From Opitutales bacterium (GTDB taxonomy: Bacteria > Verrucomicrobiota > Verrucomicrobiia > Opitutales > JABSRG01), in assembly GCA_028280845.1 (NCBI GenBank), contig JANQKZ010000034.1, forward strand, positions 62,001 to 126,000: a stretch of DNA of 64,000 bases. The letters run 5' to 3'. Both the position numbers and the translations under genes were made by a program. Shown in pieces: positions 11,766-59,641 of the stretch (positions are counted from its first letter, which is position 1; every line of letters begins with the position of its first letter). Under the pieces are notes generated by a model that did no database searches, was not told where the DNA came from, and saw only the letters and a list, made by a program, of their open reading frames with translations.

Positions 11766-11790
11766 CGTGATGGGTGGATATCCGACGGGA

Positions 11791-13587
11791 TTAATAGACG
11801 TCCCGCTGATAGCGTTTTTCCTTTTGCAGATTCTTCACGTAGGCTTCGGCCGACTCCCGATTCTGGTCACCGTGAGTTTCGATGATTTGGATGAGGGCCT
11901 CGTGAACGTCCTTGGCCATGCGCGAGGCATCACCGCAGACGTAGAAGTGTGCCCCGGACTCCAGCCAGTCATACAGGGCCGCGCCCTCCTCGATCATACG
12001 ATGTTGGACGTAGATTTTGTATTCCTGGTCACGTGAAAAGGCCGTGTTGAGACGAGTCAGCAAGCCGTCTTTCAGATATTCCTGCCACTCCAACTGGTAA
12101 AGGAAGTCGGTCTGGAAGTGTTGATCACCGAAAAATAACCAGCTGTTTCCGCTGGCTCCGTGTTGTGCCCGCTCTTCGACAAAGGCTCGGAAGGGCGCGA
12201 TTCCGGTGCCGGGGCCGACCATGATGATGGGCGTGTCGTCGCTGTCTGGCAGGTTGAAACTCTTATTGGGCTGGGTGTAGACGGGTATGGTGTCTCCGGG
12301 GCTTATGCGGTCAGCAAGGTAGCTGGAGCAGACTCCGTGCATGGGCACGCCGTACCGCTCATAGCGGACCGCGCCGACGGTCAGGTGGACCTCACCCGGA
12401 TGGGCGGACAAGCTGGATGCAATGGAATAAAGGCGACCCGGCAACTTGCGGAGAAGTCCGGTGAGCAACTCGGGAGTATACTCATTTGCGGGATACTCAA
12501 AAACGAGATCCGCAATTCCCCTTCCATAGAGCCACTTCACCAATGCGTCCTTATTGGAGGGTTCCAGCTGTTCGAGGAGGGTTTCCTGTCGGGTCGCTTT
12601 GGCGTAGGCTTCAAAGAGGTTAGACGAAAGCGAGGTCAGCTCAAAGTCATCAATGAGTGCCTGGCGAAGCGGCTTGGAACCTTCTGCGGGACTCTCGACG
12701 GCTGCCTCTGGATCCAGGCCGGTTTTCTCCAGGATCGCATCGACGAGAACCGGGTCATTCGAGGGAACTACACCGAGGGAGTCCCCCACTTCATAGCTCA
12801 GTCCCGACCCTTCGAGAGAGAATTCTAAATGGTAGATTTCTTTTTGAGCGCCGGTCCCATTCAGGAGGATTCGCTCGGTGAGTTCGGCAGGAAAGGGATT
12901 CTTTTTTGAGTATTCCGCGGGAGAGGCCGAGGGAAGGGGGGCTGTAGTGATGCTGGCCGGGCCGCTCGCCTGGCCAGCAGGTTTGAAGGCTTCCAGGACC
13001 GCGGTTGCCCACGCTTCGTAGGCTTCATCGAAATCGACATCGCAGTCCTGGCGGGGATGAATACGGGAAGCGCCCAGTTCTTCCAGGCGTAGATCAAAAT
13101 CCTTTCCGGTTTTGCAAAATTGCTCATAGCTGGTGTCGCCCAAGGCAAGGACGGAGAAACGGGTGTTTTCAAGCTTGGGAGCGGCATCACTATGGACGAA
13201 CTCATAGAAATCGACGGCTGAGTCAGGCGGATCTCCATCTCCCCAAGTGGATACCAGGACGAGGAGGTTTTCAGCCGTGGCCAACTGATCTTCAGAATAA
13301 TCCGCCATGTTGTAGACCTTGGCCGGGAAGCCCTGAGCTTTGGCCTTTTTCAAGGTGGCATCAGCTAATTCCTCGGAATTCCCGGATTCCGTTCCGTATA
13401 AAATGGTGAGCTCGGGCATGGTTGCGGAAACGAAGACTGCTTCCGACGCTGTAGAACCGGCAGCCAGCCGGCCGGCCAGGTATCCGCTCATCCAGGTGGT
13501 CTGCTCAGGGGTCATCGAGGACAGCAAGGCATCCCAAGCCTGGCGTTGCTCTGGTAAAAAAGGTGCGTGATCGGGCAAGTGTGACAT
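11791..13587 (-). CDS. cysJ: Sulfite-reductase-type NADPH flavoprotein (CysJ-like diflavin reductase)
   Basis: The 598-aa product contains a flavodoxin domain (~70-215: 'ILYGTESGNSEELA', 'VSTWGDGDPPDS', 'LALGDTSYEQFC'), a CysJ-type FAD/connecting domain ('RLYSIASSL', 'GVCSSYLAD') and a C-terminal NADPH domain ('MVGPGTGIAPFRAFVEER', 'YVCGDASRMAKDVHEAL', terminal 'RYQRDVY'). It should pass electrons from NADPH through FAD and FMN to a partner such as the CysI hemoprotein. No cysI is visible nearby. The ATG at 13587 (MSHLPDHAPF) is preferred because the upstream 35 residues are not family-like. Confidence 0.88.
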   Translation of the reverse strand: MSHLPDHAPFLPEQRQAWDALLSSMTPEQTTWMSGYLAGRLAAGSTASEAVFVSATMPELTILYGTESGNSEELADATLKKAKAQGFPAKVYNMADYSEDQLATAENLLVLVSTWGDGDPPDSAVDFYEFVHSDAAPKLENTRFSVLALGDTSYEQFCKTGKDFDLRLEELGASRIHPRQDCDVDFDEAYEAWATAVLEAFKPAGQASGPASITTAPLPSASPAEYSKKNPFPAELTERILLNGTGAQKEIYHLEFSLEGSGLSYEVGDSLGVVPSNDPVLVDAILEKTGLDPEAAVESPAEGSKPLRQALIDDFELTSLSSNLFEAYAKATRQETLLEQLEPSNKDALVKWLYGRGIADLVFEYPANEYTPELLTGLLRKLPGRLYSIASSLSAHPGEVHLTVGAVRYERYGVPMHGVCSSYLADRISPGDTIPVYTQPNKSFNLPDSDDTPIIMVGPGTGIAPFRAFVEERAQHGASGNSWLFFGDQHFQTDFLYQLEWQEYLKDGLLTRLNTAFSRDQEYKIYVQHRMIEEGAALYDWLESGAHFYVCGDASRMAKDVHEALIQIIETHGDQNRESAEAYVKNLQKEKRYQRDVY

Positions 13588-43833: not shown

Positions 43834-43908
43834 TGCCCGGTAGCTCAGCGGTAGAGCAGGTGGCTGTTAACCACTTTGTCGCAGGTTCGATCCCTGCCCG
43901 GGCAGCCA
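43834..43908 (+). tRNA. tRNA-Asn (GTT)
   Basis: A full cloverleaf can be folded: acceptor TGCCCGG/CCGGGCA, D arm GCTC...GAGC, anticodon loop CTGTTAA (anticodon GTT), T arm GCAGG-TTCGATC-CCTGC, discriminator G and encoded CCA. Its last 21 bases are repeated at 55,550, showing that it is the integration site of the adjacent island. A TTGACA box at 43766 with an AT-rich -10 region lies about 65 bp upstream. Confidence 0.95.
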
Positions 43909-44021
43909 CGCTAAAAATACGAACTTTAGCCTGGCTGTTTAATTAATTCCGAACGTATCCACTGAAGTTTTGGGACTGTCTGCTCCCAGAAATAGCGGCT
44001 CAAGCCCTCGGTTCTTAGTCA
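43888..44021. repeat. Left attachment repeat (tRNA-Asn 3' end plus island end)
   Basis: The segment beginning in the tRNA T arm (CGATCCCTGCCCGGGCAGCC) is repeated at 55550-55690. The match covers 134 bp with three point differences and a 7-bp insertion (CTTCAAG) in the right copy. The first 21 bases are tRNA sequence and serve as the probable core; the other ~113 bp are non-tRNA and likely form the common left end of both islands. Confidence 0.88.
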
Positions 44022-44202: not shown

Positions 44203-44670
44203 TTAGAGATTATACTTCTCCACGAATTTGACCCACAAATCCATATAACAATCAAACTGCTTTCTCCTACTCTGCTTATGAATTTCCAGCATTTTACGCA
44301 CGCTGAAAAACCTGACCCCATCTGCATCGTCAATTTTGTAAAGCTCCCTCTGGACCCTTGGCGCGAGTTCAAGCAACTTAAAAAGCTGAGTCACGCGTGC
44401 ACGACTCAAGTTTTCCTCCCTCGCAATCTGAGCCCTGGTTAGGGACGAATCCTTCGAGAGCCGTTTTTGCCATTCTCTGACTTTGTGGATGGGGTGTTTT
44501 ACGGGTCCCGCTGAAGCATCGTTCGAGGAAATTTTTTGCCAATCAATCTCGTGCTCCCATGGGTAAACAAAAATGGGATCTTTCCTACTGTTTGCGTGGG
44601 GAATCCCAACCAGGAATTTTACCGAAAACGTGGGACGTTTGAGCAGTTCCTCATATTCGTCTTCATCCAT
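44203..44670 (-). CDS. Small ParB/KorB-like HTH protein, island copy A
   Basis: The 155-aa product contains 'VGIPHANSRKDPIFVYPWEHEIDW', then 'HPIHKVREWQKRL', a strong helix-turn-helix 'LTRAQIAREENLSRARVTQLFKLLELAP' and a charged C-terminus. It is a diverged homologue of the two right-end copies (54935 and 59060). From memory, similar small HTH proteins often sit beside serine-recombinase genes; here none is present. It probably binds element DNA (inference). It is divergent from the Xre gene. Confidence 0.7.
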   Translation of the reverse strand: MDEDEYEELLKRPTFSVKFLVGIPHANSRKDPIFVYPWEHEIDWQKISSNDASAGPVKHPIHKVREWQKRLSKDSSLTRAQIAREENLSRARVTQLFKLLELAPRVQRELYKIDDADGVRFFSVRKMLEIHKQSRRKQFDCYMDLWVKFVEKYNL

Positions 44671-45353: not shown

Positions 45354-46220
45354 CTAAACAGATGACCAACGTTTATCCAACACTTCGGCGAGTGATGTTA
45401 AGTGCTCTTCATTAGAACGAAGCAAAGTCAGGACTCCATAGTCCCCAAGCTTAATTGATTCTTCGAAGAAAATTACATTGGCATGGCAATTGTCTGGTAG
45501 ACGGAAAAGGTATTTTGCGGGGGCAGTTGTCCACTCACTCTCTTCATCCTTAAAGACTAAATCTGTAGCCCCTCGGGCAATAGGTTCTGCAATTATTGAT
45601 CTGAACCCAGCATTCCACATTTTCTTTGAAAAGAGTTTCCATTTAATCTGCTTTTTAGGAGAACGGAAAACCAAAGAGCATGGGACTTGATCTTCCGATA
45701 AATACCTTAGTGCAGCGCATTTGATTGAAACCTTAAATTGTTGGGAAAGAGAAATTACTCCTTTCAGACCTTCGGGTAGTTGCTTTAGTTTTTTAGCAAA
45801 CTCGTTGCTTGGAAGCAGTAAACGAGATGCGAATAAGTCAGCTTCACGCTCTATTTCAAGATCTTCGTTAGCATATTCTCCCAGCGACGGCATTCTTTGT
45901 TGGCTGATTGCTAGCCTATGTTCATCAATAAAAAAATGTCCAAGTTCGTGCGCGATGGTGAATCTCCCTCTTGGACTTGTTGGAATATTTCCGGCCGCAG
46001 TGTTTAAAAAAATAATAAATGCATCTTCGTGAAATTCTAGAAGCCCTTCAAAATCATCCCCAAAATCATCGCAGTACAGGTCAATCCCTTCATTATTTAA
46101 AATCTTATTTAATGACACAGAAGCTCCCTCAAATGCTGCTTCTCCTACTGAAGATGCGTATTCTTCGATTTCCCTTACGCGATGGGTAGACAAGGGGGTG
46201 AGTTTACTTCTTATTGTCAC
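45354..46220 (-). CDS. ImmA/IrrE-family metallopeptidase
   Basis: The 288-aa product has the zinc protease site 'FTIAHELGHFFIDEH' (H91, E92, H95) and the downstream third-ligand motif 'EREADLFASRLLLP' (E126 region). Residues ~170-288 form a C-terminal domain that I do not recognise. ImmA/IrrE proteases cleave repressors or anti-sigma-like proteins after DNA damage. Its start overlaps the small gene upstream by 17 bp, and that gene overlaps the sigma factor by 4 bp, so the three are one transcript. Confidence 0.9.
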   Translation of the reverse strand: MTIRSKLTPLSTHRVREIEEYASSVGEAAFEGASVSLNKILNNEGIDLYCDDFGDDFEGLLEFHEDAFIIFLNTAAGNIPTSPRGRFTIAHELGHFFIDEHRLAISQQRMPSLGEYANEDLEIEREADLFASRLLLPSNEFAKKLKQLPEGLKGVISLSQQFKVSIKCAALRYLSEDQVPCSLVFRSPKKQIKWKLFSKKMWNAGFRSIIAEPIARGATDLVFKDEESEWTTAPAKYLFRLPDNCHANVIFFEESIKLGDYGVLTLLRSNEEHLTSLAEVLDKRWSSV

Positions 46221-46557
46221 GTTTTTTCAGGATCTCTTTTCGGGCAGCGTTCATTTTGGCTTCTGATTCAGCAGATAGCTGTTTTCCTTTTCGCGCCACC
46301 ATCGCGTACATTTTCGCCTCATCATGGATACTAGAAGGTTTTTCGAATGGAAGAATCTTCGAGCACTTCTTGGTTTCAGAAAAATGCAATATCTGCTGAA
46401 CAGCCAGAATGGAGTCCTTCATCCCCTCTGGAAGTGGAGGAACAGTCGAATCATTAGGTGTCGAAAAAGCACCAGTCGGAATCTTCAGTCCTTTTTGCTC
46501 TAGTGCTTCGACTATTTTGAGGTCGATTTCATTAAAAGTATGTTTGCTGTCACTCAT
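46204..46557 (-). CDS. Small soluble protein between sigma factor and protease
   Basis: The 117-aa product has no recognised domain: 'EIDLKIVEALEQKGL', a mid-section 'PLPEGMKDSILAVQQILHFSETKKC' and a very basic C-terminus 'EAKMNAARKEILKKRDNKK'. Translational coupling to both neighbours (ATGA to the sigma gene, 17-bp overlap to the protease gene) suggests stoichiometric function. A natural guess is a sigma-binding repressor that the protease cleaves; there is no direct sequence evidence for that. Confidence 0.65.
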   Translation of the reverse strand: MSDSKHTFNEIDLKIVEALEQKGLKIPTGAFSTPNDSTVPPLPEGMKDSILAVQQILHFSETKKCSKILPFEKPSSIHDEAKMYAMVARKGKQLSAESEAKMNAARKEILKKRDNKK

Positions 46558-47201
46558 GTCTTCTCTCCTCTCATTCGCGATTCAACAAATGCTTCGATCT
46601 TGCGCTTAGCTCTGTGACGAATCTGCCTCACACCCTCATTTGAAATATTAAATTTTTTATACAGTTCCATTAGCAGGATTCGAGGTGTTTTCGATTGAGA
46701 ATTTCTTGGATCGTGGGTTTCGTAGTAAAGCGTAATAATATCTTTTTCGCGTTCGGTAAGGGTATCAAGCGCTTCTTCAAAATAGCGCCTCTCAAGAGTA
46801 TCTGCCGAGTCTTCAGCGAGCTCTACTACATCGTAGGCTTCATCCAAGTCATCTGTAAATTGGAAGTCAGTAAACCAGTCATGGACTACATTTACAGAAA
46901 TTTTGCCAATCCAACCTTTGAAGTTCGGGGTTTTATTTGTTTTTCCGAATTGGTCGGCTTTTTGCCATATTTTTAAGAAAACTTGTTGAGAAAGATCTTC
47001 AGCTGTTTCCAGGCTGGTGAATTTCAAGACTCGGTTGGTAATTATAGACCATACATAGCTTTTGTATCTTTCATAGAGGCAGGTAAATGCTTGCGGAGCA
47101 TCGGTATCTTTAAGTGCGACATACTCCATCAGCTCCCTATCTGATAGGTTTCCATATTCTTTAATAACGCATTCTACTGTGATGTCCTCCATTACCGGCA
47201 T
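46554..47201 (-). CDS. Sigma-70-family (ECF-like) sigma factor
   Basis: The 215-aa product has a region 2 ('AFTCLYERYKSYVWSII...AEDLSQQVFLKIWQKADQF') and a region 4 with HTH ('LTEREKDIITLYYETHD...ILLMELYKKFNISNEGVRQIRHRAKRKIEAF'). It is distinct from the FecI-like factor at 59876. The linker between regions 2 and 4 is longer than usual and acidic ('DDLDEAYDVVELAEDSADT'). It heads the operon and faces the CBASS genes divergently across 130 bp. Confidence 0.87.
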   Translation of the reverse strand: MPVMEDITVECVIKEYGNLSDRELMEYVALKDTDAPQAFTCLYERYKSYVWSIITNRVLKFTSLETAEDLSQQVFLKIWQKADQFGKTNKTPNFKGWIGKISVNVVHDWFTDFQFTDDLDEAYDVVELAEDSADTLERRYFEEALDTLTEREKDIITLYYETHDPRNSQSKTPRILLMELYKKFNISNEGVRQIRHRAKRKIEAFVESRMRGEKT

Positions 47202-47218
47202 CTATTCTTAATGACAGA

Positions 47219-47283
47219 AAACCGTGACACAATCCTAACTAGGTTTTCTTTAGCAGAGTTTGGGGCAATTCATGTCACGGTTT
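47219..47283. promoter_or_regulatory. Perfect 11-bp inverted repeat between sigma operon and CBASS genes
   Basis: AAACCGTGACA at 47219-47229 and its reverse complement TGTCACGGTTT at 47273-47283, 43 bp apart, sit in the divergent intergenic space. Related GTGACAC sequences occur twice near 54845-54860. The elements may be operators or symmetric promoter boxes used by the island sigma factor (inference). Confidence 0.5.
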
Positions 47284-47331
47284 CTCGTCTACTTTATGGA
47301 GCAAATTCTATTTTCCAAAATTTCCAAATAC

Positions 47332-47586
47332 ATGAAGAAATCTAGAGATACAGTGACATACGACCTGAAACAAGGTCGAAAGACCGTTTACCGGGGCATT
47401 ACCAATGACCCGGTCGCACGTGAAGCCCAACACCGGGCTCTGGGTAAAGTCTTTGATCGATTGGTTCCAACATCTCGACGTATGACGAAGGACGGAGCCA
47501 AGGCCAAAGAGCAACATTCACTCGAAACCTATCGCCGTAACCACGGGGGGCGTAACCCTAAGTATAATCGTGATTCTGATGGTTAA
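47332..47586 (+). CDS. GIY-YIG-like small nuclease-family protein
   Basis: The 84-aa product resembles compact GIY-YIG proteins: 'VTYDLKQGRKTVYRGITNDPVAREAQHR' supplies the paired strands (VTY at 8-10 and YRG at 20-22, R30, H34), 'TKDGAKAKEQHSLETYRRNHGGRNPKYN' supplies the Glu (E60) and Asn. It has no separate DNA-binding domain. It ends 35 bp before the HNH-SAVED gene on the same strand and may belong to its transcript. The ATG at 47332 is preferred to 47260. Confidence 0.72.
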   Translation: MKKSRDTVTYDLKQGRKTVYRGITNDPVAREAQHRALGKVFDRLVPTSRRMTKDGAKAKEQHSLETYRRNHGGRNPKYNRDSDG

Positions 47587-47621: not shown

Positions 47622-48785
47622 ATGGAGAAAAAGGGTAAGCCAATAATAGCACGAAATATAAGCAAGGAAGTCGAACGAGTTCTTTGGGGTGCTGCTGCCG
47701 CCCGCTGCGAATTTAACGGCTGCAATCGCCGGTTGCACATTTCGCCAGTAACAGCAGAGCCAGGCAACTACGCCCAGAAAGCTCATATTTACTCATTCTC
47801 AGCTGATGGTCCACGCGGACGTGGTCCATTTAGAGAAGATTCATCTGGTTTGAATGAAGCCGATAACCTGATGCTTGTCTGCTATGATTGCCACAAAAAG
47901 ATCGACAACGATAAAGATGGAAAGCGCTATTCGGCTGAGCTTTTGCAGCAATGGAAACAAGCCCATGAAGCAAGGGTGAGGATGGTGACCGAAGTAGCTC
48001 CACAAAAATGTTCTCATGTTCTCCTTTATGGAGCACGTATTGGTGAAGAATCCTGTCCTTTACATAAAATTCTGGCTTTCGAGGCAATGTTTCCAGACTG
48101 GTATCCAGCGGATGACAGGCCCTTAGACATCACTATGCGTTCGTTTTCCGATGATAGCTGTCGGGAATACTGGCGGCATCAACAACGCCACTTGGAGCAT
48201 GAATTTGACCGTTGTGTCGTGCGTGATATCGAGGCGGGACACATTAAGCACCTATCAGTTTTTAGTCTTGCCCCGCAGCCCCTTCTAGTCCGCTTGGGTA
48301 CGCTGATCACTGATAAGGTACCTGTGGTCGTCTACCAACTCCACCGGGAGCCTTGTACATGGAAGTGGCAGAACCATCCTGAAGGATTCGATTATATATT
48401 GAGGGAACCAAGGCACACGTCGGGAAAGCCTGTCTTGGTAATTTCTTTGAGCGCCAGTATATGTCCAGCGCGTATCGAAGCCATACTGGGTTCAGATATT
48501 TCGATATGGGAACTGACTCTGGCAGACTGTCATAATGACTTCTTGAGATCAAAAGCCCAGCTGGTAATGTTCAGGCGGGTGGTGCGTAGGCTGTTGGCCC
48601 AAATAAAGTTGGCTCAACCGAATGCTAACGAATTGGCAATTTTTCCAGCGATGCCTGTATCTTGCGCTATCGAGTTGGGGCGTGTCCGAATGCCGAAGGC
48701 TGATATGCCTTGGGTAATATATGATCAGAGCAATAAACAGGGCCAGTTTATTGAAACTATAACAATTGGAAGACCTTATGAATAA
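47622..48785 (+). CDS. cap5: CBASS effector Cap5-type: HNH nuclease plus SAVED domain
   Basis: The 387-aa product has an N-terminal HNH domain with zinc cysteines C29, C34, C87 and C90, catalytic H55 ('KAHIYSFSADGPRG') and 'NLMLVCYDCHKKID'. Residues ~160-385 form a SAVED domain that binds cyclic oligonucleotides ('VLVISLSASICPARIEAIL', 'LAIFPAMPVSCAIELGRVRMP'). In known CBASS systems the signal activates Cap5 to degrade DNA and cause abortive infection. The stop codon overlaps the next start by 8 bp. Confidence 0.9.
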   Translation: MEKKGKPIIARNISKEVERVLWGAAAARCEFNGCNRRLHISPVTAEPGNYAQKAHIYSFSADGPRGRGPFREDSSGLNEADNLMLVCYDCHKKIDNDKDGKRYSAELLQQWKQAHEARVRMVTEVAPQKCSHVLLYGARIGEESCPLHKILAFEAMFPDWYPADDRPLDITMRSFSDDSCREYWRHQQRHLEHEFDRCVVRDIEAGHIKHLSVFSLAPQPLLVRLGTLITDKVPVVVYQLHREPCTWKWQNHPEGFDYILREPRHTSGKPVLVISLSASICPARIEAILGSDISIWELTLADCHNDFLRSKAQLVMFRRVVRRLLAQIKLAQPNANELAIFPAMPVSCAIELGRVRMPKADMPWVIYDQSNKQGQFIETITIGRPYE

Positions 48786-49974
48786 GAGTAATCAACTGAA
48801 AATCGTAGATGAAATTGTTGAATCCTTACGGATTCCTGATTCTGCATATGTCAAAGCGGAGGCTCGTTACAAGTCTCTTGGCAAGTGGTTCGGTCGATCT
48901 GAGTCACTTTGTTCCGAATATGGCCCACACATCTATCCTCAAGGCTCCTTTCGCTTGGGAACTGTCGTAAAAGGTGATGAGTATGATCTCGATTTCGGTT
49001 GTCGTTTACAAACGGGGGTCACCAAGAAGACGCATACTCAGAAGGAGTTGAAGGAACTGGTTGGAGCCGACATGAAGGCTTATCGCGATGCACACGCGAT
49101 GGAGCATGAGCTAAAAGAAAAGCACCGTTGCTGGCGCCAGGAGTATGCTGATGAACTCAATTTCCATATGGACGGGGTTCCTTCTATCCCGGAGCATGAA
49201 GATGGTCGACGGCTTCTGAAGGAGGCAATGATGAGGGCTGGTTGGGATGCAAAATTTGCTGAAAATGTGGCGGCCCTTACTGGTGCGATTACCGATAACA
49301 GATTACGAAACTATAACCATATTGATGTTAACTGGCGCGTTAGTAACTCAGAAGGTTATGCTCTCTGGTTTGAGAGCCGCATGCAGAAAGGAATGACATC
49401 GGAGCAGGAACGAATCTTTCTTGAAAAGCGCGCTGCAGCTAAGGTCGACGATATCCCAGTCCAACAAGCGATTACACCGCTACAAAAGTGTGTTCAGATA
49501 CTTAAACGTCATCGCGATATAATGTTTGTCCGGAATGCTGACTCAAAGCCGATATCCGTGATCCTGACGACCTTGGCGGCCTGGGCTTACAACAATGAGA
49601 GGGATACTTCCAGTGCACTTAAAGCAATTCTTGAGAACATGGGGTCGTTTGTTAACAATGCTACTCCACGAATTCCTAATCCGGTTAATCCTGCAGAAGA
49701 TTTTGCTGATAAGTGGTATGACCCAAGGTATCAGCATCTTCGCCTGGAGGAGTCATTTTGGTCTTGGTTGGGACAAGCGCAGAAGGATTTTGATCTTATT
49801 CTCAAGTCCAGTGACCCGAAGTTCATTGGGGGGCAGGTCAAGGAGTGTTTCGGCTCTCAGATTAACGAAGATAGGCTGTCATCCAGTATTTCAAGTGGGG
49901 ACCATCCAAAGATTTACATGCCTAAGAAGCATAACTTGTCTCCAACCCCTGCGAAGCCTTGGTGCCACCAGTAA
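48778..49974 (+). CDS. CD-NTase (cGAS/DncV-like nucleotidyltransferase) of CBASS
   Basis: The 398-aa product has the nucleotidyltransferase core 'YPQGSFRLGTVVKGDEYDLDFGC' (G56-S57; D70 and D72) and a probable third carboxylate D132 in 'NFHMDGVPSIP'. It is expected to make a cyclic di- or trinucleotide on phage infection, which activates Cap5. The ATG at 48778 has a GGAAG ribosome site seven bases upstream; an earlier TTG at 48766 is less likely. The clade is not assigned. Confidence 0.9.
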   Translation: MNKSNQLKIVDEIVESLRIPDSAYVKAEARYKSLGKWFGRSESLCSEYGPHIYPQGSFRLGTVVKGDEYDLDFGCRLQTGVTKKTHTQKELKELVGADMKAYRDAHAMEHELKEKHRCWRQEYADELNFHMDGVPSIPEHEDGRRLLKEAMMRAGWDAKFAENVAALTGAITDNRLRNYNHIDVNWRVSNSEGYALWFESRMQKGMTSEQERIFLEKRAAAKVDDIPVQQAITPLQKCVQILKRHRDIMFVRNADSKPISVILTTLAAWAYNNERDTSSALKAILENMGSFVNNATPRIPNPVNPAEDFADKWYDPRYQHLRLEESFWSWLGQAQKDFDLILKSSDPKFIGGQVKECFGSQINEDRLSSSISSGDHPKIYMPKKHNLSPTPAKPWCHQ

Positions 49975-49975
49975 A

Positions 49976-50671
49976 ATGGAGTACCCCAAGGAGTGGCAGC
50001 TGGACGTATTTTTATCAGATTACCCCTGCATGAAAGTACGCCCCTCCTCTAATACATTTTTACGCCTGGTAGGGGATTTTGCCTTTACAGCCGATCATCC
50101 GGAGCACGGAGAATTGTCTGATATATTTCGATTAGAAATTAGTGTTCCTAGAGGATTCCCTAAGGATTTGCCCATAGTAAAAGAAATCGGTGGAAAGCTT
50201 CCTAACCTAAAGCATCCGGACAGAGAGGACTTTCATGTGAATCCTGATTGCAGCCTCTGTCTCGGATCTCCCTTGAGACTGTTAATGAAACTTGCAGAGA
50301 CACCAACATTACCCGGATTTGCTGTTTGTTGCGTAGTGCCCTATCTTTATGCTATCTCATGCAAGCTGAAGAACGGTGGAAATTTGCCTTTTGGAGAGCT
50401 AGCACACGGAAGAGATGGACTCCTCGATGATTATGCCCAGATCTTTGGGCTGACTAGTAGAGTTTCTATAGTAAAAGTACTATTTCTCCTTAGCTTGAAG
50501 AAAAGAGATGCAAACAAACGTCCTTGTCCTTGTGGTTGTGCAAACCGGCTAGGTCGTTGCAATATGCGATTCAAGCTCAACCGGTTTAGGGAAATTGCAT
50601 GCCGCGCATGGTTTAACGAACATGCAAAACAATTGTACCTCTCATTAGGAGAGGATAAAGTTCTTCTTTAG
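49976..50671 (+). CDS. CBASS E2-like protein (stand-alone, type II-short style)
   Basis: The 231-aa product begins one base after the CD-NTase stop. Residues ~25-150 fit a prokaryotic UBC/E2 fold: 'FRLEISVPRGFPKDLPIVKEIGG', 'LPNLKHPDREDFHVNPDCSLCLGSPLRLL' with candidate catalytic C95, then 'PYLYAISCKLKNGGNLPFGELAHGRDG'. Residues ~180-200 hold a cysteine cluster (C184, C186, C188, C195) in 'RPCPCGCANRLGRC', SEC-C-like and probably zinc binding. There is no E1 or JAB gene, so it resembles type II-short CBASS, where E2 conjugates or primes the CD-NTase. Confidence 0.8.
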   Translation: MEYPKEWQLDVFLSDYPCMKVRPSSNTFLRLVGDFAFTADHPEHGELSDIFRLEISVPRGFPKDLPIVKEIGGKLPNLKHPDREDFHVNPDCSLCLGSPLRLLMKLAETPTLPGFAVCCVVPYLYAISCKLKNGGNLPFGELAHGRDGLLDDYAQIFGLTSRVSIVKVLFLLSLKKRDANKRPCPCGCANRLGRCNMRFKLNRFREIACRAWFNEHAKQLYLSLGEDKVLL

Positions 50672-50680
50672 GAATTTACT

Positions 50681-51556
50681 ATGATACAAGTTAATGAGAT
50701 ATCGGGAATTCTGTTGTCTGCTATAGCTTTCCTTCAAAAGCCAGCTCAAGAGGGGATAAAACTTGCTGTAAAAGATTGCTATGAGGTCCTTAAGAAAAAA
50801 TTACTTTACAGTGTTAAGTCCTGTGAACCTATTGACGAAGCCATACAAGCAGTTGAAAAAAAGCCAGACTCTGAGGCTAGGAAGTTGGTACTGTGTGAAG
50901 AACTCGAAGAGGCGAAGCTCGAAATATCTGAGGATATTTTCGAAAAGGCCAAGCAGCTAGAATTGCTTCTGAAAAAAGCTGGTGCTTGGAAGCAGGAAAT
51001 TCATCTATCGATTAAACAATCAGGAAAGGAAAATTCGATTCAAGTTGCTGGAAGAGACATTATCACAACAAAAAAAATTACCAAGAAGAACGTCATCAAA
51101 ACAGACGAGAGACATATTGATGGCGAACAAGCGAGAGTTCTCAAAAATCTGGTTGGCAAACATGCCCCAAAGTTTGCAGGCGAAGATGGAAAACCAGATT
51201 TTCGAGCTGTTTACAGAATATTATACGCGGAATTTGATGTGCAATCATACAGGGAAATCCTAAAAGAAGATTTTGATCGAGCCGTGAACTATCTTCAGCA
51301 GCTCGGAGCTCGAAATCGCTCAAAATTAAAAAAATCAAATCCACCAGCCTATAGAAATGATTTATTCGGCGCAATTTATACCAAGTGGAAGAGCTTAGGT
51401 TATGATAAGGCAGAGATTTATAAATTTGCAGAAGAAAAACTCTCTTTGACTCGTCAAATTAAATCTTTAAAGCAGTTGGGACCAAACCAACTAAAGTGGT
51501 TGAACGAGGCTGTGGATAAAGAGATGTCGAAAAAACGCAGAAAGAAACTATTATAA
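50681..51556 (+). CDS. Fourth CBASS-operon protein: helical N-domain plus ORF6C-like domain
   Basis: The 291-aa product starts 9 bp after the E2 gene. Residues 1-105 are amphipathic helices ('EGIKLAVKDCYEVLKKKLL...ELLLKKAG') of the kind that precede 'AGRDI' motifs in bacterial effector-associated regions; here IQVAGRDI occurs at 120-127. Residues ~150-205 ('FRAVYRILYAEFDVQSYREILKEDFDRAVNYL') resemble the ORF6C/antirepressor domain of phages. A basic helical tail follows. I know no assigned role for such a gene in CBASS. It could be an accessory, adaptor or second effector. Confidence 0.65.
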   Translation: MIQVNEISGILLSAIAFLQKPAQEGIKLAVKDCYEVLKKKLLYSVKSCEPIDEAIQAVEKKPDSEARKLVLCEELEEAKLEISEDIFEKAKQLELLLKKAGAWKQEIHLSIKQSGKENSIQVAGRDIITTKKITKKNVIKTDERHIDGEQARVLKNLVGKHAPKFAGEDGKPDFRAVYRILYAEFDVQSYREILKEDFDRAVNYLQQLGARNRSKLKKSNPPAYRNDLFGAIYTKWKSLGYDKAEIYKFAEEKLSLTRQIKSLKQLGPNQLKWLNEAVDKEMSKKRRKKLL

Positions 51557-52149: not shown

Positions 52150-53619
52150 ATGCATGTTTATCAAAAAAGTAGCGTAACCGAAGCTGTTGAAATGGCGACG
52201 CAGTTTCGGAAAGAGGGACGCTATACTTGGTTTCGTGGGCAAACACATGTTTTACCACCAACTCCAACATTTTTACGTTTAAATGCCGACGATCAGCGTA
52301 AGGCTGAAGAAAGGCTCAAACGCTATTGCCATTGGTTATTGAATACACCTGGTTTAGGGGCCTTTCGTAAAGATATTGATGGGGCTATTGCAGTGGCACA
52401 GCACTATGGCTTGCCCACATCGTTCCTTGATTTCACCCGAACACCTGCTGTCGCTGGTTTCTTCGCTTCAACAGATGCCAAGAAATACAAAGTTGGAACC
52501 GCCTGCATTTATTGCCTCAATACTGATGATCTTGCAGAGGTATGGGGCTTTATTCGTAAGGCTCTGCCGCATTATCCAGATATTGAGCCAGTGGAAGTCG
52601 AAGTACCGAACTTATGGCGACTTGAAGCTCAAGATGGAACCTTTCTACGCTGTCCTCTCAACTGGGATCGGTATTACCCTATGGATCGTATTGAATTCCC
52701 TTTAGGCAACCGACCTTCATATCCTACTAGCGATCAGATTTATCCAGGACGGAAAAGCCCATTAGAAGAATTGCTTGATCACTACTTTAGCGCAGAACAA
52801 TCCCGGGAATTTAATGGAAAAATTAGAGAGTATTTCCCTGAAGCAAAAGTGCTGGAGATTCAATCGCCGACCTGCGGTTATCATGCCGAGTACTTTGTTC
52901 AAGGTGGGTTATCAAAACGTCTTGATTGGGCGAAATGTCGATTACAACCATGGCTTACTGTGTCACGGGAAAAGTTTCGTGCTACAGCTACGGGAGAAAT
53001 CACACTAAAACTCAAGCACCATTTGAACCCCAAGCAAATACGTTGCGAGGTAGCCTTTGCTGTGCGCCACTCTTTGCAGTCACAGCCTTCACTAAGGAAT
53101 CAGGCTGTGCGTTGGCGAATCGAACCAAGGGGACAGCCGCCTAAGGCGCTTAATAGCGCACTGGACAGACTCTGGAATGGTCTTCGACGTCTACCATTCA
53201 GCGATGATGACATTGCCGAGGGAATTGGCCTCTGCATTGCCCTATACTCTCTCAAGTTTCATAAGGGTGAACGGTCCTATAATGAGCAGACTGCCATTGC
53301 CGAGAGATGCCTAGGACCGTGCTTAGTCATAGAGATATCCTCATGGAGCGGAAGTCATGCTCGCGCCATAGTCGGTCAAAACGAATTAAGTATGGCTTTG
53401 CGACCAGACGCGCGGAAGAAACTGAAGTTCGAATATCGTAAATATGGAGAACATGTAGGAGCGCTCCTACAGTTATGCTGGGAACCTCGACGACTTTTCG
53501 TCTTTGAGCCGTTTAGCAGGTTGTTCGCCACGCAACTGGCTCCTACACAAGTCTTGATGTCGGAAACCGTACCGGACCATTTCTCTCCGGCTCGAATCGC
53601 CGGATTCGGCCTACCATAA
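52150..53619 (+). CDS. FRG-domain protein
   Basis: The 489-aa product has an N-terminal FRG domain: 'RYTWFRGQTHVLPPTPTFLR' near residues 24-43 and 'AIAVAQHYGLPTSFLDFTRTPAVAGFFA' near 79-106. A ~350-residue C-terminal region that I do not recognise follows ('HVGALLQLCWEPRRLFVFEPF'). FRG proteins are common in bacterial defence and toxin loci, but their biochemical activity is largely undescribed. It is the only intact gene between the truncated and intact PIN copies. Confidence 0.82.
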   Translation: MHVYQKSSVTEAVEMATQFRKEGRYTWFRGQTHVLPPTPTFLRLNADDQRKAEERLKRYCHWLLNTPGLGAFRKDIDGAIAVAQHYGLPTSFLDFTRTPAVAGFFASTDAKKYKVGTACIYCLNTDDLAEVWGFIRKALPHYPDIEPVEVEVPNLWRLEAQDGTFLRCPLNWDRYYPMDRIEFPLGNRPSYPTSDQIYPGRKSPLEELLDHYFSAEQSREFNGKIREYFPEAKVLEIQSPTCGYHAEYFVQGGLSKRLDWAKCRLQPWLTVSREKFRATATGEITLKLKHHLNPKQIRCEVAFAVRHSLQSQPSLRNQAVRWRIEPRGQPPKALNSALDRLWNGLRRLPFSDDDIAEGIGLCIALYSLKFHKGERSYNEQTAIAERCLGPCLVIEISSWSGSHARAIVGQNELSMALRPDARKKLKFEYRKYGEHVGALLQLCWEPRRLFVFEPFSRLFATQLAPTQVLMSETVPDHFSPARIAGFGLP

Positions 53620-53666: not shown

Positions 53667-54239
53667 TCATCCTGGCAATTCCCACTCTAGTGCCTCAAAA
53701 ACATAATCGGCAAAAGCAGGGATAGATTTTCCCAAGTGAGCCAGAATAATCTCCGGGCGCTTCTGCCTTTCCCCTGCTATTTCTACAATTTTAGATAAGA
53801 CAACATCAGGGCTCATTGAGTATAGGGTCTTCAGGTAATCTTGAGGGTGCACCGCGTTAATCTCCCAGGGGGCCAATGCTTTCTTGGGGAAATCCTTGAG
53901 ATTGAATGTGACGATTACCGACGCCTGAGCTTTAATTGCTGTCGCAAGGACATGCCGATCTTTCTCATGATTGGTAAGAACGGCTTTTATGGGTTCGTAA
54001 CCTTCAACAATCGATTCCGGAAAATGCTTTTCGACTTCCGAACGCCAAGAGTCAGCTAAGTGCTCAGGCCAAGGTCGACTTAACTTTTCTAATTGTACGC
54101 TACGAACTTCATTCAATATTTCGTGGGACCAAATTGGTAGATAAAGGCGTGGAGGCTCGGCCAGGCGAAGGAGCAAATCGCACAAACCGAAATTTGCTAA
54201 GACGCATGCATCGATAACAACTTTAAAATCTGCCCTCAC
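53667..54239 (-). CDS. PIN-domain toxin
   Basis: The 190-aa product has the PIN-domain acidic residues D10 ('VVIDACVLANFG'), E40/E44, D94 ('HEKDRHVLATAI') and D116 ('TFNLKDF'). PIN toxins usually cleave RNA. Its start overlaps the upstream HTH antitoxin gene by 4 bp (ATGA), the standard antitoxin-toxin order. A truncated copy of its 3' end lies at 51902-52121. Confidence 0.88.
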   Translation of the reverse strand: MRADFKVVIDACVLANFGLCDLLLRLAEPPRLYLPIWSHEILNEVRSVQLEKLSRPWPEHLADSWRSEVEKHFPESIVEGYEPIKAVLTNHEKDRHVLATAIKAQASVIVTFNLKDFPKKALAPWEINAVHPQDYLKTLYSMSPDVVLSKIVEIAGERQKRPEIILAHLGKSIPAFADYVFEALEWELPG

Positions 54240-54709
54240 TCCTCGCCTGTATAATCCGCATTGTAGAGGCCCTCATCATCCACCGATTGGGCCAGCTGCT
54301 TTAATGCTTGATGGCGTTTGTTATCCCTTTGCTTTTGATAGGCGAGCAAATCCCTAAAATAGACGCGGCGATGAGCTCCCACACGATGAAAAGGGATTTT
54401 TCCTTCCTCCAGCAGGTTAACCAGGAACTGGCGAGACATACCAAGGAAGTTAGCGGCTGCTTGTGTGGTGAACGTCTCTTCTTCAGGAAAAAGAACGATG
54501 GCTTTGCCCTCACGCATCATGTTGATGACCCGGACCAGGTGATGAAAAATCGGGTCAGGTAAATCGATCCTGACTCCCTCCCGGCCGACCAGGGCTGGTC
54601 TATCTTCCTCAATGACGAGTTCGGCCAATTGATCCAGCTCTGCCGGAGAAAGCAAAGAAGGATCTATGCGATTTCCTGTGGTTGCATTCATATATTCATA
54701 ATCGGTCAT
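54236..54709 (-). CDS. HTH (excisionase-type) antitoxin
   Basis: The 157-aa product has an excisionase/MerR-like HTH 'TFTTQAAANFLGMSRQFLVNLLEEGKIPFHRVGAHRRVYFRDLLAYQ' at residues ~78-124. The N-terminal half is acidic and may bind the toxin. The arrangement matches known HTH-17/PIN toxin-antitoxin pairs. An inverted repeat just upstream (54744-54765) is the likely operator. Confidence 0.85.
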   Translation of the reverse strand: MTDYEYMNATTGNRIDPSLLSPAELDQLAELVIEEDRPALVGREGVRIDLPDPIFHHLVRVINMMREGKAIVLFPEEETFTTQAAANFLGMSRQFLVNLLEEGKIPFHRVGAHRRVYFRDLLAYQKQRDNKRHQALKQLAQSVDDEGLYNADYTGEE

Positions 54710-54798: not shown

Positions 54799-55516
54799 AA
54801 TTTTAGATACATAAGCAATTCTTTATCAATTATTTATGAATCGTGACACGTTGTGACACGTAATTTGCAGCGTTTTTTGACCGAAAAAGTGTGCCACATC
54901 ACTCATTTTCCTACACCAGATGACCCGTTTCAGCCTATTTTGAGACGTTGGAGTTCTTTAATTCTCGGAACAAATCCATCTGTTTTTCTGGGGGTGCCTT
55001 TGCGATCATGGCTAATTTTCTCAAGCTGAATGCACGGATCGATTTGGGATCTCTAAGATCGCACAAATAGTGCTTTGCCTCCTTGGGAAGTTCAGCGAGT
55101 TGGAATAGCTGAGTAACACGTGCTCTCGTAAGTCTCTCTTGTTCAGCAATATGAGACTTCTTTAGGCCTGGCTCTTCAGATAGACGTTTTTCCCATTTGA
55201 GAACCCTGTGAATCGGATGGAGCTTATCCTCCGCTTCGGGTTCAACGACTTTTACTGCCCTGACTGCGTCAATAGGATAAGAAAATGGGTAGGATACGAA
55301 GGGAGTTGCACCCCAACGGGAGTGCGGGATTCCAACGACCAGGGTCAGAGTGAAAAAAGTTCGTATTTCAATATCTTCGGGCAGCCACGCATTTTCTCTA
55401 AGCTTTGCTTGGTTAGAAAATGGAGTGCCCTCCATAGCCTTCGGCGACGGTGGGCTGTCTGCCCTTCAGCAGGGCTCTCCCCTGCGACAAAGTGGTTTGA
55501 AGTGTAGCAGGTGTTC
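54799..55516. repeat. HTH-gene end module, copy B (direct repeat of 58923-59641)
   Basis: A 718-bp segment almost identical to 58923-59641. The conserved central part contains the HTH gene. Similarity begins at TTTTAGATA and ends at GTAGCAGGTGTTC. It forms the right end of island 1; the copy at 58923 forms the right end of island 2. Confidence 0.85.
54935..55435 (-). CDS. Small ParB/KorB-like HTH protein, island copy B
   Basis: The 166-aa product has the organisation of copy A: 'LVVGIPHSRWGATPFVSYPF', 'KLHPIHRVLKWEKRL', HTH 'LKKSHIAEQERLTRARVTQLFQLAEL' and C-terminal 'SIRAFSLRKLAMIAKAPPEKQ'. It is nearly identical to copy C at 59060 (only a few substitutions, mostly conservative), but clearly diverged from copy A. 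Reading direction is inward from the right end of the island. Confidence 0.75.
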   Translation of the reverse strand: MEGTPFSNQAKLRENAWLPEDIEIRTFFTLTLVVGIPHSRWGATPFVSYPFSYPIDAVRAVKVVEPEAEDKLHPIHRVLKWEKRLSEEPGLKKSHIAEQERLTRARVTQLFQLAELPKEAKHYLCDLRDPKSIRAFSLRKLAMIAKAPPEKQMDLFRELKNSNVSK

Positions 55517-55549: not shown

Positions 55550-55690
55550 CGATCCCTGCCCGGGCAGCCACGCTAAAAATACGAACTTTAGCCTGGCTGT
55601 TTAATTAATTCCGAACGTATCCACTGAAGTTTTGGGACTGTCTGTTCCCAGAGATAGCGGCTCAAGCTTCAAGCCCTCAGTTCTTAGTCA
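55550..55690. repeat. Right attachment repeat (tRNA-Asn 3' fragment), start of island 2
   Basis: Begins CGATCCCTGCCCGGGCAGCC, the tRNA-Asn 3' end without the rest of the gene, and continues through 141 bp homologous to 43888-44021. This shows that 43888-55549 is bounded by direct repeats and that island 2 begins with the same left-end sequence. Confidence 0.88.
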
Positions 55691-58922: not shown

Positions 58923-59641
58923 GATTTTTAGATATATAAGCAATTTTCTATCAATGACTTATGGGATATTACACCTTGTGACACGTATTTTACAGTGTTT
59001 TTTGAGGCTCAAATGCCTCACATCGATCCAATTCGCTGCATCAGATGACCCGTTTCAGCCTATTTTGAGACGTTGGAGTTCTTTAATTCCAAAAACAAAT
59101 CCATCTGTTTTTCTGGGGGTGCCTTTGCAATCACGGCTGGTTTTCTCAAGCTGAATGCACGGATCGATTTGGGATCTCTAAGATCGCACAAATAGTGCTT
59201 TGCCTCCTCATGCAGTTCATTGAGTTGGAATAGCTGAGTAACACGTGCTCTCGTAAGTTTCTCATTTTCAGCGATATGAGACTTCTTTAGGTTTGGTTCT
59301 TCAGATAGACGTTTTTCCCATTCGAGAACCTTGTGGATCGGATGGAGCTTATCCTCCGCTTCAGGTTCAACGACTTTTACTGCCCTGACTACGTCAATAG
59401 GATAAGAAAATGGGTAGGATACGAAGGGAGTTGCACCCCAGCGGGCGTGCGGGATTCCAACGACCAGGGTCAGAGTGAAAAAAGTTCGTATTTCAATATC
59501 TTCGGGCAGCCACCCATTTTCTCCAAGCTTTGCTTGGTTAGAAAATGGAGTGCCCTCCATAGCCTTCGGCGACGGTGGGCGGATTTCCCTAGGCCTAGGC
59601 TCTCCTGTGCCTCAAAATGGTTTGAAGTGCAGCAGGTGTTC
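58923..59641. repeat. HTH-gene end module, copy C (direct repeat of 54799-55516)
   Basis: A 719-bp direct repeat of the segment at 54799-55516, carrying a near-identical HTH gene. It marks the right end of island 2. The flanks beyond GTGTTC differ between copies. Confidence 0.85.
59060..59560 (-). CDS. Small ParB/KorB-like HTH protein, island copy C
   Basis: The 166-aa product is nearly identical to copy B, with HTH 'LKKSHIAENEKLTRARVTQLFQLNEL'. The two differ mostly in a few positions of the HTH region and helix 1. The high identity implies recent duplication or frequent gene conversion, or both copies have been kept because they act on island ends. Confidence 0.75.
   Translation of the reverse strand: MEGTPFSNQAKLGENGWLPEDIEIRTFFTLTLVVGIPHARWGATPFVSYPFSYPIDVVRAVKVVEPEAEDKLHPIHKVLEWEKRLSEEPNLKKSHIAENEKLTRARVTQLFQLNELHEEAKHYLCDLRDPKSIRAFSLRKPAVIAKAPPEKQMDLFLELKNSNVSK

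Follow-up and report, generated by a model that had tools for sequence, protein, structure and literature searches.

An ECF sigma factor, a small HTH-less protein and a CapP-family protease encoded opposite a CBASS operon: a candidate activating counterpart of CapH–CapP

The locus and its genomic island

The 64,000-nucleotide stretch of DNA analysed here (the window, at its full length) carries on its minus strand three tightly packed genes, encoding an ECF-type sigma factor, a small protein and a CapP-family metalloprotease (Table 1). The sigma and small-protein genes overlap by 4 bp (ATGA), the small-protein and protease genes by 17 bp. This trio stands head to head with a divergent operon in which HNH-SAVED, CD-NTase and E2 genes were identified with PADLOC. 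The layout agrees with the original prediction, which had placed three genes with these same overlaps at 45354–47201, had called the first product a sigma-70-like factor and had noted the divergent CBASS genes.

Table 1. Features of the trio, of the facing operon and of the surrounding island (window positions).
Feature	Position	Strand	Remarks
Direct repeat of 95 bp, left end of the island	43888..43982	+	starts in the 3' end of tRNA-Asn
CapP-family metalloprotease	45354..46220	-	288 aa, GTG start
Small HTH-less protein, putative anti-sigma and CapP substrate	46204..46557	-	117 aa
ECF-type sigma factor, first gene of the trio	46554..47201	-	215 aa, ATG start
AAACCGTGACA, candidate -35-like element toward the CBASS operon	47219..47229	+	
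Small ORF, GIY-YIG-like by eye, first gene opposite the sigma gene	47260..47586	+	homologue in the same place in locus L095
AAACCGTGACA, second perfect copy, toward the sigma operon	47273..47283	-	
CBASS effector HNH-SAVED (Cap5-like)	47622..48785	+	PADLOC 1e-140; Pfam SAVED 3.7e-48
CD-NTase (DncV-like cyclase)	48766..49974	+	PADLOC cyclase 1.2e-112; Pfam DncV-like NTFase 1.1e-10
E2-like protein, short type II CBASS	49976..50671	+	PADLOC E2 1.2e-79
ORF6C-like domain gene, next after the E2-like gene	50681..51556	+	Pfam ORF6C 3.4e-7
Direct repeat of 95 bp, second exact copy, right end of the island	55550..55644	+	

PADLOC recognised both a CD-NTase and an effector in the facing operon, which on its gene content is a short type II CBASS. 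The reading frame of the E2-like gene is listed from 49595; the PADLOC match covers residues 132–347 of that frame, and the domain begins at about 49976. In the GIY-YIG-like frame nearest to the sigma gene, the conserved portion begins at the ATG at 47332. A match of this frame to mad1 (0.009) was taken as due to chance.

Trio and CBASS operon sit inside an 11.7-kb island between the exact 95-bp repeats, with a G+C content of 44%, as compared with 54% in the left flank. No integrase was seen at the island. Its further cargo comprises a gene for an FRG-domain protein (52150–53619) and a PIN/HTH_17 pair (53667–54709). Three related small ParB-HTH-like proteins, all encoded on the minus strand, lie just within the two island ends (44203–44670 and 54935–55435) and outside the island on the right (59060–59560); they may be part of the island's mobility.

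The three proteins

The protease matched Peptidase_M78 (2e-11), and the PADLOC capP model matched its residues 27–267 at 7.3e-41. When a sequence profile built from ten relatives was compared with solved structures, CapP (7t5t) was matched at 1.6e-22, with IrrE/PprI far behind (about 3e-5). The AlphaFold (AF2) model of the protease, with a pLDDT of 83, aligned with 7t5t over 232 residues (Z 19.4, rmsd 3.1) and with ssDNA-bound PprI (8sln) at Z 17.1. The protein consists of a zincin domain with an HELGH motif (H91, E92, H95) and a distal EREAD motif (E124, E126), and of a C-terminal PAS/GAF-like sensor domain. All of the numbered residues were invariant in our alignments A2 and A4, and the metal ligands are conserved.

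By sequence, predicted fold and HMM matches, this protease is a CapP. It had originally been described as an HExxH protease of the ImmA/IrrE type; the HExxH motif stands, while the generic label was replaced by the sharper one on the strength of PADLOC and of the profile and structure comparisons. Single-stranded DNA (ssDNA) switches on known CapP, which then cuts its substrate, the repressor CapH (PMC13373217; PMC10904395); this cut de-represses CBASS and Bub operons (PMC13373217). By analogy with known CapP, the CapP of the window may be ssDNA-activated, too. Plasmids and phages yielded only distant matches to CapP, found in plasmids and in one phage.

The sigma factor matched Sigma70_r2 (1.9e-8), Sigma70_r4 (8.6e-7) and TIGR02937 sigma70-ECF (2e-17) in Pfam and NCBIfam, and it possesses regions 2 and 4 but lacks region 3, the architecture that defines an ECF sigma. 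Its family profile also matched solved ECF sigma factors in the PDB, SigW among them at 3e-10. No relatives of this sigma were found in viral contigs.

The small protein matched no family in Pfam or NCBIfam, and no HTH was detected in it by the Pfam, NCBIfam or PADLOC HTH models; canonical CapH proteins, by contrast, match HTH models strongly. Alignments of the small proteins revealed a motif close to either end, G-x(3)-P on the N-terminal side and A-A/V-R-K-G..L on the C-terminal side. The AlphaFold model, of low confidence (pLDDT 66), comprises four helices and a better-predicted C-terminal hairpin; the helices form no tri-helical HTH, and a fold search with this same low-confidence model returned no match among solved folds. 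Pfam and solved folds likewise revealed no known anti-sigma domain, anti-sigmas being too diverse for this to amount to an exclusion. A search of plasmids found no relatives of the small protein.

In the genome, the small protein holds the position of CapH, directly upstream of capP. The PADLOC capH model (PDLC04142) matched the window small protein at 0.0039; several HTH-less small proteins of sigma-linked loci were matched along their full length, at 2e-10 to 5e-15, and HTH-containing CapH proteins at 6e-25 to 5e-32. Apparently, the seed of this model mixes both kinds of protein, so that the database labels HTH and HTH-less proteins alike as capH, and leaves the accompanying sigma unregistered. 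Since the model matches both kinds, we dropped the PADLOC match as proof of CapH ancestry and built a separate profile from the C-terminal 42 residues of 20 canonical CapH proteins.

With this CapH-tail profile, the C-termini of the small proteins scored above shuffled sequences (P 1.6e-4, or 5e-4 after thinning of the set). The corresponding values for the controls were 0.10 for sigma C-termini, 0.24 for small-protein N-termini and 0.66 for CapP C-termini, none of which stood out from shuffles. The likeness is statistical and weak for each single sequence, and when the small proteins were compared with CapH over their whole length, profile against profile, the match was not significant (E 0.04). 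The best reading of these comparisons is that the small protein would be an anti-sigma that kept CapH's tail but not its HTH, and that it presumably binds the sigma factor and is cleaved by CapP.

Distribution of the trio and the operons that it faces

CapP relatives were present in 12 of the 388 sampled genomes of the phylum Verrucomicrobiota, at 13 places, 12 of which showed the sigma, small-protein and CapP genes in this order. In 84,980 species genomes, our scan picked up 80 loci, including many canonical HTH–CapP pairs, and here the trio order recurred in Bacteroidota, Balneolota, Planctomycetota, Chloroflexota and Alphaproteobacteria. Within the Bacteroidota phylum, 36 of 395 genomes encoded CapP; where the protease was readable (29 loci), its partner was a sigma in 21 cases, an HTH protein in six and neither in two. 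The HTH partner was dominant in the Pseudomonadota sample (16 of 23, against a single sigma). The trio is a conserved set and no chance grouping, with the same gene order in several phyla.

In a CapP tree of 88 rows, the window-type CapPs formed one clade (support 100/98), and only five changes of partner type were counted, against 39.5 in shuffles. So few changes imply that the partners were inherited with the protease, yet exchanged a few times. Trio types 1 to 4 were set by sigma and small-protein profiles built in this analysis; the sigmas of some types other than that of the window fall below Pfam detection.

We examined what lies opposite 46 trio loci. In 29 of them the sigma gene stands head to head with a recognised immune operon, CBASS in 12 cases and Bub-type in 17; the other 17 loci have no recognised CBASS or Bub operon opposite. 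The first 26 loci, among which L022 and L023 are near copies, accounted for six CBASS operons with differing cyclases and effectors (HNH-SAVED, 2TM, NucC) and for ten ubiquitin-like Bub operons (Multi_ubiq, JAB, E1, E2). Among the 20 further loci, six face CBASS, and in seven the operon opposite is of the E1/Bub kind, in a few cases on weak matches to profiles built in this analysis. The same range of operons, CBASS and Bub, is served by CapH–CapP (PMC13373217).

In place of CBASS or Bub, some trios have a lamin-tail-like domain gene opposite (L024, 8188–8697; L032, 8118–8642), and the trio of L101 faces a Tle1-like phospholipase (11785–13194); these may be further immune operons. No recognisable CBASS or Bub operon lies opposite the sigma in L171–L175, which form one type-1 clade of the Bacteroidota sample. 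The first ORF opposite the sigma is often short, basic and conserved, as in the window (47260–47586), in L016, L054, L106 and L108, and in L019, L107 and L109. It is GIY-YIG-like in the window and L095, and in Bacteroidota it belongs to a family of 57 aa (MATNPPKDNSRKGAV...) or to one of 41 aa (MAKDSSGKKFNRIP...).

The divergent element and the proposed switch

Between the sigma and CBASS genes, the 11-mer AAACCGTGACA occurs in two perfect opposed copies. With 8 occurrences, the string AACCGTGACA is about as frequent in the genome as chance predicts, so that this genome search showed no excess of further regulon sites; the only close opposed pair is that of the window. Variants of the element occur in related loci, where the two copies often share one variant (L018 has GCGGGACA, L096 GGCGTTACA). 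From eight loci we built the profile AAASCGTKACA, which scored above shuffles in 12 held-out type-1 loci (Fisher P 4e-4, or about 0.003 without L017 and L019, which had been inspected before the profile was built) and was missing where the sigma is of another type (P 0.92).

Inverted repeats exceeded shuffles in both groups of loci (175 versus 160.2 ± 2.6 in type-1 loci), the excess over other divergent intergenic regions being marginal (P 0.03–0.04). A cross-locus permutation of the inverted repeats left composition uncontrolled and was set aside in favour of the shuffle test. Across loci, the gap between the two copies of the element ranges from none to about 44 bp, and in L019, L111 and L017 the copies abut to give a tight palindrome. 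Such variable spacing is easier to reconcile with a pair of independent promoter elements than with a single dimer operator. Because inspection by eye revealed no -10 consensus, we can only infer that the element is a promoter part read by this sigma.

We consider it fairly probable that sigma, anti-sigma and protease together form a switch for CBASS, acting as the activating counterpart of CapH–CapP. In the resting state, the ECF sigma would be kept inactive by the small protein. Infection or other damage would give rise to single-stranded DNA and thereby to active CapP, which would cut the small protein within the C-terminal tail that resembles CapH's. Once released, the sigma would bring RNA polymerase to a divergent promoter pair in the intergenic region 47202–47331, driving both the CBASS operon and its own operon, so that the response would be amplified. 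Much of this had been anticipated by the original prediction, in which the small protein was a possible cleavable anti-sigma and the operon a possible controller of CBASS; the parts of that proposal amenable to computation held, some of them weakly. Control of CBASS is suggested by the CBASS and Bub operons opposite 29 of the 46 loci and by an intergenic element present in both orientations, while a cleavable partner is suggested by the CapP family membership of the protease and by a CapH-like C-terminus found in the small protein and not in the sigma.

Alternatively, the small protein could be a chaperone, adaptor or inhibitor of CapP, with the protease destroying or processing the sigma itself. 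Such an arrangement would suit a locus where all three genes overlap, the small gene overlapping both of its neighbours, and a small protein devoid of any recognised anti-sigma domain. We find it unlikely, given that it is the small protein, not the sigma, that carries the CapH-like tail, occupies the place of CapH directly upstream of CapP and, in several loci, is matched full length by the PADLOC capH model. The inverted elements, for their part, might be operators for a repressor (the small protein, a sigma–small protein complex or an unlinked regulator), in which case the CBASS operon would be derepressed much as by CapH–CapP and the sigma would serve only its own operon. Inverted repeats are typical of dimeric operators, the copies do form a tight palindrome in the three loci named above, and CapW binds palindromes at CBASS promoters (PMC9122588). 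However, a spacing that varies from none to about 44 bp is beyond the tolerance of a rigid dimer, the small protein shows no HTH and the element tracks the clade carrying this sigma type, which makes operators an improbable explanation.

More doubtful still is the notion that the trio has no control over CBASS, being an unrelated stress or mobile-element regulator that co-travels on defence islands. The tRNA-bounded island of the window, with its other cargo, and the 17 of 46 loci facing no recognised CBASS or Bub operon are what one would expect of such a passenger. Against it, trios stand head to head with CBASS or Bub operons in several phyla, beside unrelated effectors and cyclases, and the protease family is known to control such operons (PMC13373217).

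CapH–CapP, described by Lau et al. in 2022, is reportedly a CBASS regulator that lifts repression upon DNA damage. The trio shares with it the protease family, the CBASS and Bub neighbours, a small substrate-like gene immediately before capP and a similar C-terminal tail. It differs in that the HTH repressor is missing. In its place stands a small protein devoid of an HTH, with an ECF sigma gene ahead of it, which points to activation through release of the sigma and not to derepression. The logic of the switch would be that of Calp (CalpL–CalpT–CalpS, associated with type III CRISPR): an alarm-activated protease, CalpL, cleaves an anti-sigma, CalpT, and a sigma, CalpS, is set free for immune transcription (PMC12751052). 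However, CalpL is a Lon-SAVED protease activated by cA4, whereas the window encodes a non-homologous M78 zincin of the CapP type, and the window small protein matches no Pfam family; we claim no homology with Calp.

IrrE/PprI–DdrO and ImmA–ImmR have in common with the trio the zincin and PAS/GAF-like fold (Z about 16–17 to IrrE/PprI), and PprI senses ssDNA (PMC10904395). Their substrates are Xre-type repressors, in contrast to the sigma and small protein found here, and by sequence the window protease is nearer to CapP than to IrrE. CapK–CapS and CapW/BrxR are also damage-responsive controllers located beside CBASS, Bub and other immune operons (PMC13373217, PMC9122588), but the former is a kinase/STAS repressor and the latter a WYL repressor, neither being accompanied by a protease or a sigma. 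In the literature that we searched, whose reach did not extend to the original CapH–CapP paper, no description of a sigma-linked CapP was found. What is new here is probably a true CapP with a partner set other than CapH, representing an activating form of a known switch.

On a wider scale, we lean slightly towards the view that such trios are widespread and apparently undescribed controllers, in which CapP destroys a dedicated anti-sigma and CBASS or Bub operons are turned on by a sigma of their own with positive feedback, CapP having switched more than once between HTH repressors and pairs of sigma and anti-sigma as partners. Sigma-linked CapP loci explain why a defence database calls HTH-less proteins capH. 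If the proposed switch is real, it would also explain how CBASS and Bub operons are regulated in Bacteroidota and Verrucomicrobiota, two phyla whose typed CapP genes mostly come without an HTH partner, and it would mean that the damage-triggered control of suicidal immunity does not proceed by derepression alone, but can also be activating, with an amplifying loop.
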